Assembly (NCBI GenBank): GCA_018897155.1
Contig: JAHILE010000017.1
Coordinates: forward strand, 1-43,582
Source: Nanoarchaeota archaeon
GTDB lineage: Archaea; EX4484-52; LFW-46
Reading direction: 5' to 3'
DNA length: 43,582 bases
Position 1 is the stretch's first letter, and every line of letters begins with the position of its first letter. Both the position numbers and the translations under genes were made by a program. Positions 13,934 to 19,581 of this stretch are shown one piece after another. A model generated the notes under the pieces. The model saw nothing but the letters and a program-made list of their open reading frames with translations, was not told the DNA's origin and made no database searches.

Positions 13934-14043
13934 GTTTTTGAAATGCGGAAAAGAATCAGTACTTGATAATGATTTGTATCGGCAATGCTAAGAGCAATGT
14001 TTTATATACTATGAGACAATATAAGAAGACGGGGGGGTTATCG

Positions 14044-15852
14044 ATGGTTAATGAACGGATTACTGAAGATTTTTTCAGAGATAATGTAAAAAAAGATGAC
14101 TTTTATAAAAAAGGTAAAATTATTCTTGAAGAACAATCCTCTAAAAATATCAAAATCGATAAACTTTTAAAAAACGCTTCAAAAAATGGAATTGGTGGCG
14201 GTCGCCCTGAATTTGTAATTCAATTTAAAGAAAATCCTGATTTAATACTTATTGTAGAATGTAAATCAAATGTTTTATTTCATGAATCTAAAGAAGGAAC
14301 AAAATATAAAGAGTATGCAGTAGATGGCGTGTTATTATATTCATCATTTTTGTCTAAAGAATACGACGTGATTTCTATTGCAATAAGTGGTGAAGAAAAA
14401 AATAATTTAAGAATATCTCATTTTTTGCAATTAAGAGGCACTGTAGAAGCTCATAAGATATTCGAAGAAGACAAATTATTATCATTGACAGATTATTTGA
14501 ATGGATACAAAACAGATGAAAAGAAATTTAATCAAGATTATCAAGAATTATTAAAATATTCTAAAATTCTTAATGATAAATTGCATTCAATAAAAATCCC
14601 GGAATCGCAAAGAAGTCTTTTAATTAGTGGTGTTCTTATTGCTTTAACAGATAAAGCATTTCGCAATGCATACAAATTTCAGAAACCCAAAGAATTATCT
14701 GAAAATTTAATTAATACAATTAAAAATAAATTGACCAATGTTCAAAATGAACACATAAATGAAATTATTACTACTTACAGTTTTATTAAAACGCATACAA
14801 TCATTTCTAAAGAAGAAAATAAATTAAGAGACATAATAACCGAGATAGATGAAAAAATAAATAATTTTATGAAAACATATAAATATTATGATGTTCTAGG
14901 ACAATTTTATATTGAGTTTTTAAGATATGCTAATAATGATAAAGGATTAGGAATTGTTTTAACTCCGCCGCACATAACTGAACTTTTCTCAGAAATAGCC
15001 AATGTGAATAAGGATAGCATAGTTTTAGATAATTGCACAGGAACTGGCGGTTTTTTAATTTCTGCAATGAGAAAAATGATTAAAGATGCAGGAAATGATG
15101 GTAAAAAAGAAGAAAAAATTAAACACGAACAACTTGTTGGAATTGAATTTCAACATGAGATATTTGCGTTAGTTTGCTCTAATATGTATATTCATGGAGA
15201 TGGTAGGAGTAATTTAATAAAAGGTTCTTGTTTTGATGAAAAAATAATAAAGCATGTTAAAGAATTTAAACCAAATGTAGGATTTTTAAATCCTCCTTAC
15301 AAGTCTACAAAAACAGATCCAGAAGAATTAGAATTTGTTTTAAACAATTTATCCGTGCTTCAAAAAGGTTCATTATGCATTGCTATTATTCCCATGAGTT
15401 GTGCTTTAGCTCAAAGCGGAATTGGATTAACATTAAAAGAAAAATTATTAAGAGAACATACATTAGAAGCTGTTTTTTCTATGCCTACAGAACTATTTCA
15501 TAATTCGGATGTGGGTGTAAATACTTGTGTAATGGTTTTCAGAACAAAAGAAAATCATCCAGCGAATTATAAAACTTATTTCGGATATTGGAAAGACGAT
15601 GGGTTTATCAAAAGAAAATCCGGAAGGGATGATTATAAAAATAAATGGAGCGAAATAAAAAAATATTGGTTGGAAAATTATAGAAATAAAGAAGAAATTG
15701 AAGGGTTTAGTGTTAAAAAATATGTGGCAGCCAATGATGAATGGTGTGTAGAAGCATATATGGAAACAGATTATTCTAAATTAAATGAAAAAGATTTTGA
15801 AAAAACATTAAAAGATTTTGTCGCTTTTAAATTTTTAAACAGGGGGATTTAA
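14044..15852 (+). CDS. BcgI-like fused nuclease-methyltransferase (R-M subunit A)
   Basis: 602 residues from ATG 14044. The N-terminal 100 residues carry a PD-(D/E)XK-type site: P55-E56 in GRPEFVIQF, then E72-C-K74 in LILIVECKSN. An N6-adenine methyltransferase follows, with LTPPHITELF (about 306-315), SAM motif DNCTGTGGF (about 329-337) and catalytic NPPY (416-419). Nuclease plus methylase on one chain, followed by a specificity subunit, is the plan of type IIB/BcgI-like enzymes, which both cut and methylate. The TATA box at 14001-14008 puts transcript start near a run of seven G at 14031-14037. Far more AT-rich than neighbours: likely acquired. Confidence 0.88.
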   Translation: MVNERITEDFFRDNVKKDDFYKKGKIILEEQSSKNIKIDKLLKNASKNGIGGGRPEFVIQFKENPDLILIVECKSNVLFHESKEGTKYKEYAVDGVLLYSSFLSKEYDVISIAISGEEKNNLRISHFLQLRGTVEAHKIFEEDKLLSLTDYLNGYKTDEKKFNQDYQELLKYSKILNDKLHSIKIPESQRSLLISGVLIALTDKAFRNAYKFQKPKELSENLINTIKNKLTNVQNEHINEIITTYSFIKTHTIISKEENKLRDIITEIDEKINNFMKTYKYYDVLGQFYIEFLRYANNDKGLGIVLTPPHITELFSEIANVNKDSIVLDNCTGTGGFLISAMRKMIKDAGNDGKKEEKIKHEQLVGIEFQHEIFALVCSNMYIHGDGRSNLIKGSCFDEKIIKHVKEFKPNVGFLNPPYKSTKTDPEELEFVLNNLSVLQKGSLCIAIIPMSCALAQSGIGLTLKEKLLREHTLEAVFSMPTELFHNSDVGVNTCVMVFRTKENHPANYKTYFGYWKDDGFIKRKSGRDDYKNKWSEIKKYWLENYRNKEEIEGFSVKKYVAANDEWCVEAYMETDYSKLNEKDFEKTLKDFVAFKFLNRGI

Positions 15853-16793
15853 TGGTTAAAGTAAAAGATTATTTTGATTTAAATTATGGTGTTAATTTAG
15901 AATTCTCCAATATGGAAGAAGATTCTAATGGCATTCCATTTGTAGCCAGAACCGAAAAAAACAATGGTGTTGTTGGCAAAGTCAAATTAATTGAAGGAAT
16001 AAATCCAAATCCGGCAAATACGATTTCAGTTTCTTGTGGTGGTTCTGTAATGGCGAGTTTTTTACAAGAAGAACCGTACTATAGTGGGTTTCACATACTA
16101 TACCTAACACCAAAAATAAAATTAAATGAAAGAGAATTATTGTATTATTGTATGTGTCTAAAACAAAATGCCTGGAAATATTCATATGGAAGGCAAGCAA
16201 ATAAAACTTTAAAAGATTTAGAAATTCCATCCAAGGAAGAAATTCCTACTTGGGCGTATTCATTAAAAGTCAATGAATTGAAAAAAGAACCAATTATCTC
16301 TAAAAAAATTGAATTAGATGTTAAAAATTGGAAAAATTTTAAGATTATCGATTTATTTGAAATTAAGAAGGGTGAAAGATTAGTAAAAGAAGAAAGAATA
16401 GAAGGAATGATTCCATTAATCACCGCAACTTCTGAAAATAATGGTGTTGTAGATTATATCTCTTATGATGACTTTAAGGATAATAAAAAGATTTTTAGAG
16501 ATAAAGTAACTATTGATATGTTTTTTAATGTATTTTATCATAATTATGGCTATTTTAGTGATGACAATGTTCATACCCTAATTCCGAAAAATATTTCTCT
16601 CAATAAATATGTTTGCCTGTTTTTGGCAACAACTCTAAAGAAACTTCATTACAAATATGATTTCGGCAGGCAGGCAAGATTACAAAGATTAGATTTCGAT
16701 GAAATCAAATTACCCGTAGATAAAAAAGGAACTCCTGATTGGCAAGTTATGGAAGAGTATATAAAATCATTGAATTACAGCTCAAATTTATAG
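15852..16793 (+). CDS. R-M specificity subunit (HsdS/BcgIB-like)
   Basis: 313 residues built as two half-repeats. Half 1 contains IPFVARTEKNNGVVGKV and ends YGRQANKTLKDLEIPSK; half 2 contains IPLITATSENNGVVDYI and ends FGRQARLQRLDFDEIKLP. Each half is a target-recognition domain plus a spacer helix, as in HsdS and BcgIB. It should read a bipartite DNA site for the fused nuclease-methylase. Its ATG overlaps the TAA of the A subunit by one base, so the two are translationally coupled. It is as AT-rich as its partner. Confidence 0.88.
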   Translation: MVKVKDYFDLNYGVNLEFSNMEEDSNGIPFVARTEKNNGVVGKVKLIEGINPNPANTISVSCGGSVMASFLQEEPYYSGFHILYLTPKIKLNERELLYYCMCLKQNAWKYSYGRQANKTLKDLEIPSKEEIPTWAYSLKVNELKKEPIISKKIELDVKNWKNFKIIDLFEIKKGERLVKEERIEGMIPLITATSENNGVVDYISYDDFKDNKKIFRDKVTIDMFFNVFYHNYGYFSDDNVHTLIPKNISLNKYVCLFLATTLKKLHYKYDFGRQARLQRLDFDEIKLPVDKKGTPDWQVMEEYIKSLNYSSNL

Positions 16794-17938: not shown

Positions 17939-18258
17939 TTTGTTGGCATACTGAAATTTTTCGGGGCTGGTGGTGTAGGAGATGCAATTGGGTGGAATTC
18001 TGTTTTATTTGAATCACTGACTTTTTTTATAGTCGTATTTTTTGAAAATAATGGCTCGGATTCGTTATTATTTGCTTCTTTAATTACGGGAATGTTATTT
18101 TCTGGAGTGGTGAACTTGTTGGCTATTACATATCCGATAAAAATCAACATTATGATTAAAATCAAGATTTTTATATACGGCGTATCTCTTTTATTAGTTT
18201 CATCGTTCATAATTTCAAGATTTTTGTTTGAATTTTGTTCTTCTGATGTTTCTTCCAT
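17935..18258 (-). CDS. Single-pass membrane protein of surface operon
   Basis: 107 residues from ATG 18258, which follows the stop of the upstream surface gene (18261) almost directly. An acidic, Asn-rich N-terminal tail of about 35 residues is followed by one hydrophobic helix (IKILILIIMLIFIGYVIANK) and a Ser/Asn/Pro-rich tail ending FSMPTN. No family recognised. The short gap to the 316-residue protein implies one transcript and probably a shared role at the cell surface. The 3' end overlaps the RecJ-like gene by 4 bases. Confidence 0.7.
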   Translation of the reverse strand: MEETSEEQNSNKNLEIMNDETNKRDTPYIKILILIIMLIFIGYVIANKFTTPENNIPVIKEANNNESEPLFSKNTTIKKVSDSNKTEFHPIASPTPPAPKNFSMPTN

Positions 18259-18260
18259 AT

Positions 18261-19211
18261 TTATCTCATCCCCGCAAATCTGCCGTAGGTATAACCATAT
18301 CCGGAACATCCCGAAGCACAAGGATAATTTGTATATGGCTGGCATCTTGTTGGTCTAAAACCTGCCCAGCTCCAATCCCAAATAATCCCATATTGATTTG
18401 GAGCGCTATTTTCAGCAATACAACGTCCTACACCTGTTCCGTAGCCGATGTTAAAATTACATTGAGTACCCCATGTATCCGTGCATTTTACTGCTTGTTG
18501 CACTACACATCCACTAAGAAGATTATTGTTCGTAATCCAATCCTTACATGATTGTCCAAGCGCTCCGCAACTGCCGCCAATTCCGGCCCATCCTCCATAA
18601 ACCCAATCATCAGTAACACCATTACAGTCCTGATCAAGCCCATCTGCGGCGCACGTATATGCAGTTGAGCCAGGATAGCATGTTGCGCAGGCATCGTTAC
18701 AGTCGTCTTTGGGCCATGGACCTCCCGGGCATGTTTGAATTGGTGAATGATTATCGCCATCCACATCAGTAGTGTTGATGAGCCACGCAGTTATGTTGTT
18801 ATCACAATAATCGGTGATTTGACCGTTGCATTTGTTGTTTGCACGGCCATCCCCATCAATATCAACCCAGCAAGAGTTCAAGAATGTTCCGTCCGGAAAA
18901 ATTATGCCGTTTCCAGCCCCGATAGATATATTTCCGGAAACCGTCAGCCTTTTGTTTGAAGGCGCCACCCCGATTCCGACGTTTCCGCTGGATGAAACAT
19001 TTATCGGGCCGTCAATGTAAGTGGAATTAAATTCTCCAGATGGCATTGTTATGCCAATGTTTCCGTCAATGTCGAATGAAAATTCTGATAATGGATGCCA
19101 TTGCAGCGGCACTGCAGATGCGTAGTTTATAGCCACTTCAATAGCTAGAACAGCAAAGAGAATAAGAATGTGCGCTGCATATTTTTTTTGAATGTTGATT
19201 ATAAATTTCAT
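18261..19211 (-). CDS. Secreted surface protein with GNVGIG and MopE-like motifs
   Basis: 316 residues. An uncleaved signal or N-terminal anchor covers residues about 10-33. Residues 37-112 are the segment shared with the 116-residue neighbour, containing SSGNVGIGVAPSNKRLTVSG, a pattern typical of phage tail-fibre and S74-chaperone-type repeats. Residues about 115-205 hold MopE-like Asp/Cys clusters (DIDGDGRANNKC and DVDGDNHSPI...DDCNDACATC...DGLDQDCNGVTDD), which in other proteins bind Ca or Cu. The C-terminal 110 residues are Cys/Trp/Gly-rich. GGGAG lies upstream of ATG 19211. Second gene of a three-gene operon. Confidence 0.82.
   Translation of the reverse strand: MKFIINIQKKYAAHILILFAVLAIEVAINYASAVPLQWHPLSEFSFDIDGNIGITMPSGEFNSTYIDGPINVSSSGNVGIGVAPSNKRLTVSGNISIGAGNGIIFPDGTFLNSCWVDIDGDGRANNKCNGQITDYCDNNITAWLINTTDVDGDNHSPIQTCPGGPWPKDDCNDACATCYPGSTAYTCAADGLDQDCNGVTDDWVYGGWAGIGGSCGALGQSCKDWITNNNLLSGCVVQQAVKCTDTWGTQCNFNIGYGTGVGRCIAENSAPNQYGIIWDWSWAGFRPTRCQPYTNYPCASGCSGYGYTYGRFAGMR
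18925..19015. repeat. 91-bp exact direct repeat, copy 1
   Basis: Identical over 91 bases to 19298-19388, in the same orientation. It encodes the GPINVSSSGNVGIGV...SGNISI segment of the 316-residue protein. Flanking codons differ, which implies recent duplication or gene conversion. Confidence 0.95.
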
Positions 19212-19230
19212 CAGATCTCCCGGTGCTTTA

Positions 19231-19581
19231 TTAGCATTTCGTTTTCATAAACGTTCCGTCCGGGAAAATTATGCCGTTTTCAGTTCCTCCTACTATGGAT
19301 ATATTTCCGGAAACCGTCAGCCTTTTGTTTGAAGGCGCCACCCCGATTCCGACGTTTCCGCTGGATGAAACATTTATCGGGCCGTCAAGATAACTTGAAT
19401 TAAATTTCCCGGATTTCGTTGTTATATTGATGGTTCCAGCATTATCTAGCGTGACTTCTGATATTGGATGCCATTTTACAAGGGCGGCAACATAATTGCC
19501 TGACATGCTCACTACAAGAACCGAAAGAAAAACTATGAGCACGATTGCTGTGTTTTCAGAAATATTGATAGTGATTTGCAT
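19231..19581 (-). CDS. Short paralogue of the GNVGIG surface protein
   Basis: 116 residues. A hydrophobic N-terminal anchor (TAIVLIVFLSVLVVSMSGNYVAAL) is followed by the same module as residues 37-112 of the 316-residue protein, including the exact SSSGNVGIGVAPSNKRLTVS segment. It stops at FMKTKC just where the neighbour continues FLNSCWVDIDGDG. It thus looks like a copy truncated before the MopE-like part, or a minimal fibre-base protein. First gene of the operon; a TATA tract near 19598-19610 lies about 24 bases before ATG 19581. Confidence 0.8.
   Translation of the reverse strand: MQITINISENTAIVLIVFLSVLVVSMSGNYVAALVKWHPISEVTLDNAGTINITTKSGKFNSSYLDGPINVSSSGNVGIGVAPSNKRLTVSGNISIVGGTENGIIFPDGTFMKTKC
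19298..19388. repeat. 91-bp exact direct repeat, copy 2
   Basis: Identical to 18925-19015; the copy lies in the 116-residue paralogue. Confidence 0.95.

Follow-up and report, generated by a model that had tools for sequence, protein, structure and literature searches.

How did two adjacent genes of a Nanoarchaeota archaeon come to share a perfectly identical stretch of DNA while differing on either side of it, and what kind of protein do they encode? The question is raised by a 43,582-nucleotide window that represents the entire contig 17 (JAHILE010000017.1) of a 1.43-Mb draft genome (GCA_018897155.1; 62 contigs, 95.99% complete; G000 in our numbering of genomes). On its minus strand lie the tandem genes P0002 (19231–19581; 116 aa) and P0001 (18261–19211; 316 aa), which are separated by a 19-bp gap and homologous to each other (E=4e-38). 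Searching the whole window for exact repeats, we recovered the 91-bp maximal direct repeat that the initial annotation had reported for this pair, with the same coordinates and length: positions 18925–19015 in P0001 equal positions 19298–19388 in P0002. No other exact direct repeat in the window reaches 25 bp, nor does any inverted one, and the longest repeat among 20 shuffles of the window measured 18 bp. Within their own genome, P0001 and P0002 are the only two members of their family and carry the only two copies of the block.

In the codon alignment, the block covers codons 67–95 of P0001 plus its edges and thus contains 29 complete codons of both genes, encoding DGPINVSSSGNVGIGVAPSNKRLTVSGNI; the shared peptide listed initially was correct in its letters but shorter than this stretch. 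All 29 codons are identical between the two genes, compared with 22 of 37 same-residue codons outside the block, plus none of two at the block edge (Fisher p = 1.1e-5, with the block edges picked post hoc). The comparison of synonymous changes inside and outside the block that had been proposed as a check (29/29 versus 22/39) sets the block apart. The flanks have diverged, as described at the outset, but they are homologous: DNA identity amounts to 49.5% over residues 1–38, 69% over residues 39–66, 100% in the block and 85% on its 3' side, where a 6-nt indel occurs. Both genes carry the same motifs in the same order, WHPxSE and FNSxYxDG before the block and NGIIFPDGTF after it. A run of at least 91 identical columns arose in none of 20,000 column permutations of the alignment, and the longest permuted run was 59 when shuffling was restricted to the clearly homologous part.

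Because selection on the protein cannot account for identical synonymous sites, recent recombination is the simplest reading, in line with the initial proposal. As in a gene-conversion tract, the identical block is edged on both sides by older divergence that includes synonymous sites, and we infer from this pattern that gene conversion is the mechanism; recent recombination in the stalk block, most simply by conversion, is the best explanation of the data. The identity stops abruptly, within a few bases, at both block ends, as would also be expected if a GNVGIG cassette had been copied or inserted recently, i.e., by module shuffling instead of conversion between older full-length paralogues, and the number of GNVGIG modules does vary in relatives. 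However, homology flanks the block on both sides in the same order, and the single-copy gene of a genome of the same genus (G001) is likewise ordered. The two genes were therefore presumably already paralogous at this site, which favours conversion over insertion, and we consider a cassette copy unlikely, though not negligible.

What the recombining genes encode can be read from their parts (coordinates on the minus strand throughout). Each protein begins with a hydrophobic N-terminal segment, comprising residues 15–33 in P0001 (19113–19169; maximum 19-residue Kyte-Doolittle mean 2.13; ending ASA) and residues 13–31 in P0002 (19489–19545; maximum mean 2.25). These segments support the earlier view that both proteins are exported. 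They are followed by the motif WHPLSE in P0001 (19083–19100) or WHPISE in P0002 (19456–19473) and by a stalk with the motif NGIIFPDGTF (18882–18911 and 19249–19278, respectively), which also occurs in relatives. In P0002, this motif lies 5 codons ahead of the stop, so that the protein ends in FPDGTFMKTKC without a head domain, precisely where the head of P0001 starts; P0001 continues into a MopE-like, Asp/Cys-rich head (residues ~113–316). The 19-bp intergenic gap contains GGGAGATCTG (19212–19221), a Shine-Dalgarno-like sequence that, as read from the sequence, would serve P0001. By eye, neither MKFIINIQKKYAAHIL nor MQITINISENTAIVL contains a class III prepilin site ([KR][GA] directly before the hydrophobic helix), and the suggestion of a pilus-like spike is accordingly not borne out.

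The N-terminus turned out to be the hallmark of a wider group, which we define here as the WHPLSEI family: exported stalk proteins with an N-terminal xITINIEKKHA, a hydrophobic segment and a WHPLSEI-like motif. The part common to the family measures ~70 residues and consists of a short start (M.ITINIEKKHA or MSVTITFEKKHF), ~20 hydrophobic residues with a Kyte-Doolittle mean of 1.9–2.9, and the WHPLSEI-like motif, which also takes forms such as GHPISEL and YHSASEL. Small residues of AxA-like type frequently close the hydrophobic stretch, which is therefore equally compatible with cleavage as a signal peptide and with retention as an anchor. In P0001 and P0002, as in relatives, a stalk motif (GNVGIG, NGI.FPDG or INASxIEG) comes next.

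A first scan of the genome collection with P0002 gave no match, while P0002 alone as query returned relatives in ~10 other genomes of the order; one further match, L014, is a phosphoribosyltransferase-like frame unlike a family member and was disregarded. We built a profile of the family N-terminus from 17 members, P0001 and P0002 included, and the matches of these two to it (E=1.2e-25 and E=1.2e-24) are hence partly circular. The first version of the profile identified members in 13 of 34 genomes of the phylum; the improved version identified them in 15 of the 34 and in 13 from more distant archaea, among which the weakest matches are doubtful (L098 and L099, for example, do not resemble family members and were set aside). 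The combination of anchor and GNVGIG that the initial annotation had suggested searching for in related genomes does exist, for instance in G001 (GNVGxG) and in G018, a genome of the same order (WxPLxQI with GNVGIG). G001 carries one family member, at a locus different from that of P0001/P0002, in which N-terminal motifs and GNVGxG follow the order of the pair. The genes that flank the P0001/P0002 site are located on two separate contigs in G001, and therefore no empty site can be defined. A partial search of the literature on DPANN archaea with tail-fibre or tail-collar proteins yielded no account of the family.

Across the family, the stalk motifs INASxIEG, GNVGIG..P..KL.VSGNI and NGI.FPDG are followed by very different C-terminal parts, several of which resemble phage tail-collar fibre proteins (PF07484 Collar, PF21939 Gp10_C; phrog_1800, phrog_8469). 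The head of a member from a distant archaeon (G286) matched a PHROG tail collar fibre (E=1.6e-31) and that of a G026 member a PHROG tail fibre (E=7.1e-21); the Pfam matches to Collar and Gp10_C in relatives are weaker and fall below the curated cut-offs. A T7 tail fibre N-domain-like segment was found in G037 and a weak F5/8-type C domain in a head from G003, and further relatives carry Cys-rich heads without a known family. Kinship with phage tail fibres, as first proposed, is thus supported by relatives that combine the same N-terminus with tail-collar, T7-tail-like and GNVGIG modules. The pair itself differs from the tail-collar proteins: the collar domain occurs in relatives only, P0001 has a MopE-like Cys/Asp head and P0002 has none.

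In phage fibres and endosialidases, the S74 domain acts as a trimeric, intramolecular chaperone. Its reported absence holds for P0001/P0002 and for the genome G000 as a whole, neither of which gave a Pfam match to Peptidase_S74, but the statement is incomplete. In G018, GNVGIG-repeat proteins terminate in Peptidase_S74 (E=2.4e-18); one such protein additionally bears WxPLxQI behind a hydrophobic stretch. P0001 and P0002 therefore resemble S74 phage tail fibres in the stalk module GNVGIG..P..KL.V.GNI, in the FPDGT-like motif and through this S74-terminated relative, whereas they differ in being chromosomal, exported via an N-terminal hydrophobic segment, and without S74 or nearby virion genes.

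Two further observations concern heads in relatives. A collar-headed member (L054, KA24; G004:C19:29445-29704) has an apparently frameshifted N-terminus, and its profile match falls into two pieces. Between two related species, members at L056 (5158–6111) and L057 (1670–2302) have the N-terminus and the C-terminal head in common, and one of them carries ~100 extra residues right after the IEGG junction, i.e., a head insertion at the stalk boundary.

Mosaics similar to that of the pair recur in other genomes. In a tandem G028 pair, the first 73 codons are 91% identical in DNA and the heads are unrelated, each head having an orthologue in another species (G026 for the collar head, G019 for the other type). 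At its N-terminus, the G026 gene is 88.6% identical to its head orthologue versus 90.9% to the other G028 paralogue; being no closer to its head orthologue, this N-terminus fits recombination between copies. A second tandem pair in G028 takes the same form as the first. In G003, a dispersed pair on two large contigs has stalks that are 73–97% identical and include a 65-bp exact tract, with N-termini ~50–60% identical and heads less so. The tandem pair of G286 shares an 83-bp exact tract, and one of its copies is full-length with a collar head while the other ends in a short tail, much like P0001 and P0002. Between G026 and G028, DNA identity amounts to 65% for the collar heads and 97% for the adjoining upstream gene, from which we conclude that heads evolve fast. 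Near the G286 tandem pair, a protein at L109 (4085, minus strand) has a prepilin-like start (MKKGQASITGFIITIVLIITVV).

These recurrent mosaics also bear on the concern that the 91-bp identity is an assembly artefact, produced by collapsed or chimeric reads of two similar genes. The genome is a draft, and contigs of relatives do end in family N-termini: in G019, contigs break inside them at L065 (the end of G019:C56) and L066 (the start of G019:C124). Such breaks are expected if near-identical copies interrupt short-read assembly, and family copy numbers in drafts may therefore be underestimates. Against an artefact stand the two reading frames, which remain open and uninterrupted through block and flanks, and the like mosaics in independent assemblies, including the distant archaeon with the 83-bp tract and the large G003 contigs. 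We regard this explanation as very unlikely.

The reading that we favour, and hold to be probable, is that P0001 and P0002 are tandem cellular exported proteins of a DPANN archaeon, of phage-tail-fibre-like type, arisen by an older duplication followed by recent recombination in the stalk, and likely acting as a homotrimeric adhesive spike. The older duplication would have given the pair; recent gene conversion, or other recombination, would then have homogenised no less than 91 bp of the stalk, and N-termini and heads would have remained different. Both proteins are predicted to start with an export or anchor segment and to continue into a short, beta-rich stalk built of GNVGIG and FPDGT modules; P0001 alone adds a Cys-rich head. 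Once exported, the proteins would stand on the cell surface, probably as trimers with the head facing outward, and a homotrimeric spike of this kind would recognise partner or host cells. As the copies have stalk and N-terminus in common but not the head, their common DNA would let tandem copies recombine in such a way that stalks stay alike and heads can be joined to other stalks or anchors. A crossover between the two blocks, for example, would delete 373 bp and fuse the P0002 N-terminus to the P0001 head. As for P0002, it could act as a headless partner or a sequence donor, or be a copy in decay. The sequences establish the recombination, the modular family with its varied heads and the fibre-like modules, whereas trimer formation, surface display and adhesion are inferred. 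The interpretation given in the initial annotation, an archaeal surface fibre or pilus-like spike with active conversion or duplication, was thus right in outline and is partly supported.

Several results weigh against our reading. The sequence at hand fits a recent cassette copy as well as gene conversion. Neither P0001 nor P0002 matched a PHROG or NCBIfam family. AlphaFold prediction of P0001 and P0002 reached a predicted local distance difference test score (pLDDT) of 31, as monomer only and with short strands, and is as unusable as that of a collar-headed relative (pLDDT 37). The MopE match in P0001 (PF11617) scored 22 bits, below the curated cut-off of 27. In addition, a search with the P0001 head only returned no homologue among 101 relatives, and head exchange at the P0001/P0002 locus is therefore not demonstrated.

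Considerably more tentative is an extension of the favoured reading, according to which the proteins would belong to a DPANN-wide family of membrane-associated, tail-fibre-like receptor-binding spikes. Their heads would diversify fast, and recombination within the common stalk and N-terminal sequences would exchange them between tandem as well as dispersed copies, thereby changing partner recognition much as phages switch fibres or bacteria vary their antigens. Large adhesins, SPEARE among them, have been proposed as attachment proteins of Nanohaloarchaeota, which are related DPANN archaea (PMC9765267); unlike these, WHPLSEI-family proteins are mostly 100–450 aa long and fibre-like. As context only, cryo-tomography of another DPANN co-culture showed antenna-like structures, with tips recalling phage tail fibres, on AS-7 partner cells (PMC11329633). 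The family offers concrete candidate receptor-binding proteins for the recognition of the cells to which DPANN archaea attach. In it, a single conserved N-terminus combines with stalks and heads of phage-tail type, copies show signs of having recombined, and the heads are small enough for expression and testing. It further bears on whether archaea took over phage fibre modules for cellular use. The initial annotation covered neither the wider family with its tail-collar and S74 relatives nor the recurrent mosaics.

The head of P0001 suggests a different role that has to be considered. It is Cys-rich and contains, as previously noted, a single MopE-type Asp/Cys motif (D-x-D-G-D / DCND; residues 170–202; 18606–18704, minus strand; PF11617, E=2e-4), by virtue of which it probably binds metal. 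The likeness to Cu-binding_MopE is confined to this one motif, with a sub-threshold score and an unrelated architecture, and an alignment to acyloxyacyl hydrolase, in a short region rich in Asp, covers the same stretch (E=9e-4). A match to oxalate decarboxylase (E=0.46) was dismissed as chance. Exported structural or metal-binding envelope proteins, such as S-layer accessories, would account for the MopE-type motif that P0001 has in common with P0005, another protein of the window, and the nearby P0004 and P0006 resemble S-layer-type or anchored secreted proteins. The highly variable heads on a common N-terminus, several of them phage tail-collar domains, are a better fit to recognition, and we consider such an envelope role instead of an adhesive spike possible but doubtful.

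The phage tail domains in relatives could also indicate the tail-fibre genes of an integrated virus, and we therefore inspected the neighbourhood of the pair. P0001 and P0002 are surrounded by housekeeping genes (coenzyme A (CoA) ligase, DHH, radical S-adenosylmethionine (SAM) and S-adenosylhomocysteine (SAH) hydrolase), and no virion genes were found in these surroundings. A type I restriction-modification pair lies nearby, and the proteins carry an N-terminal hydrophobic export segment. Searches of IMG/VR and phage records, of limited sensitivity, found no relative of the family. On the basis of the housekeeping neighbours and the lack of a relative in these searches of limited sensitivity, we conclude that the genes, judged by their sequence context, are cellular and non-viral, and an integrated virus appears highly improbable. 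Family loci in G026, G028 and G019 are likewise found amid DUF99-like, amidohydrolase and MCM-like genes, names that were assigned by reading the sequences. A diversity-generating retroelement was also considered and is unsupported, as reverse transcriptase (PF00078) is absent from G000.

Other genes of the window complete the picture of the locus. On the 3' side of P0001, the open reading frame P0003 (17935–18345, minus strand) likely starts near 18258 (MEETSEEQ...), contains one hydrophobic segment and is possibly a third gene of the operon. The restriction-modification genes mentioned above encode a type I methylase and a specificity subunit (13963–16793, plus strand). P0005 (27453–30185, minus strand) is a 910-aa secreted protein whose MopE-type motif lies above the Pfam cut-off (E=1.8e-9). 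Divergent from the pair, P0004 (19659–20657, plus strand) encodes an exported protein rich in Cys, in which motifs of the NAHV/SHAG type recur (NSHAGVNT, DNAHVADYG, INAHVGKCG); it matched no Pfam family, and its C-terminus consists of PEFGW and a hydrophobic tail. A similar C-terminal part (SLLPGEEKVVSINVFGGEV...TPEFGWLGF plus a hydrophobic tail) is found in P0006 (30195–32537, minus strand), a long Cys-rich secreted protein, and this likeness suggests a common surface-anchoring module.
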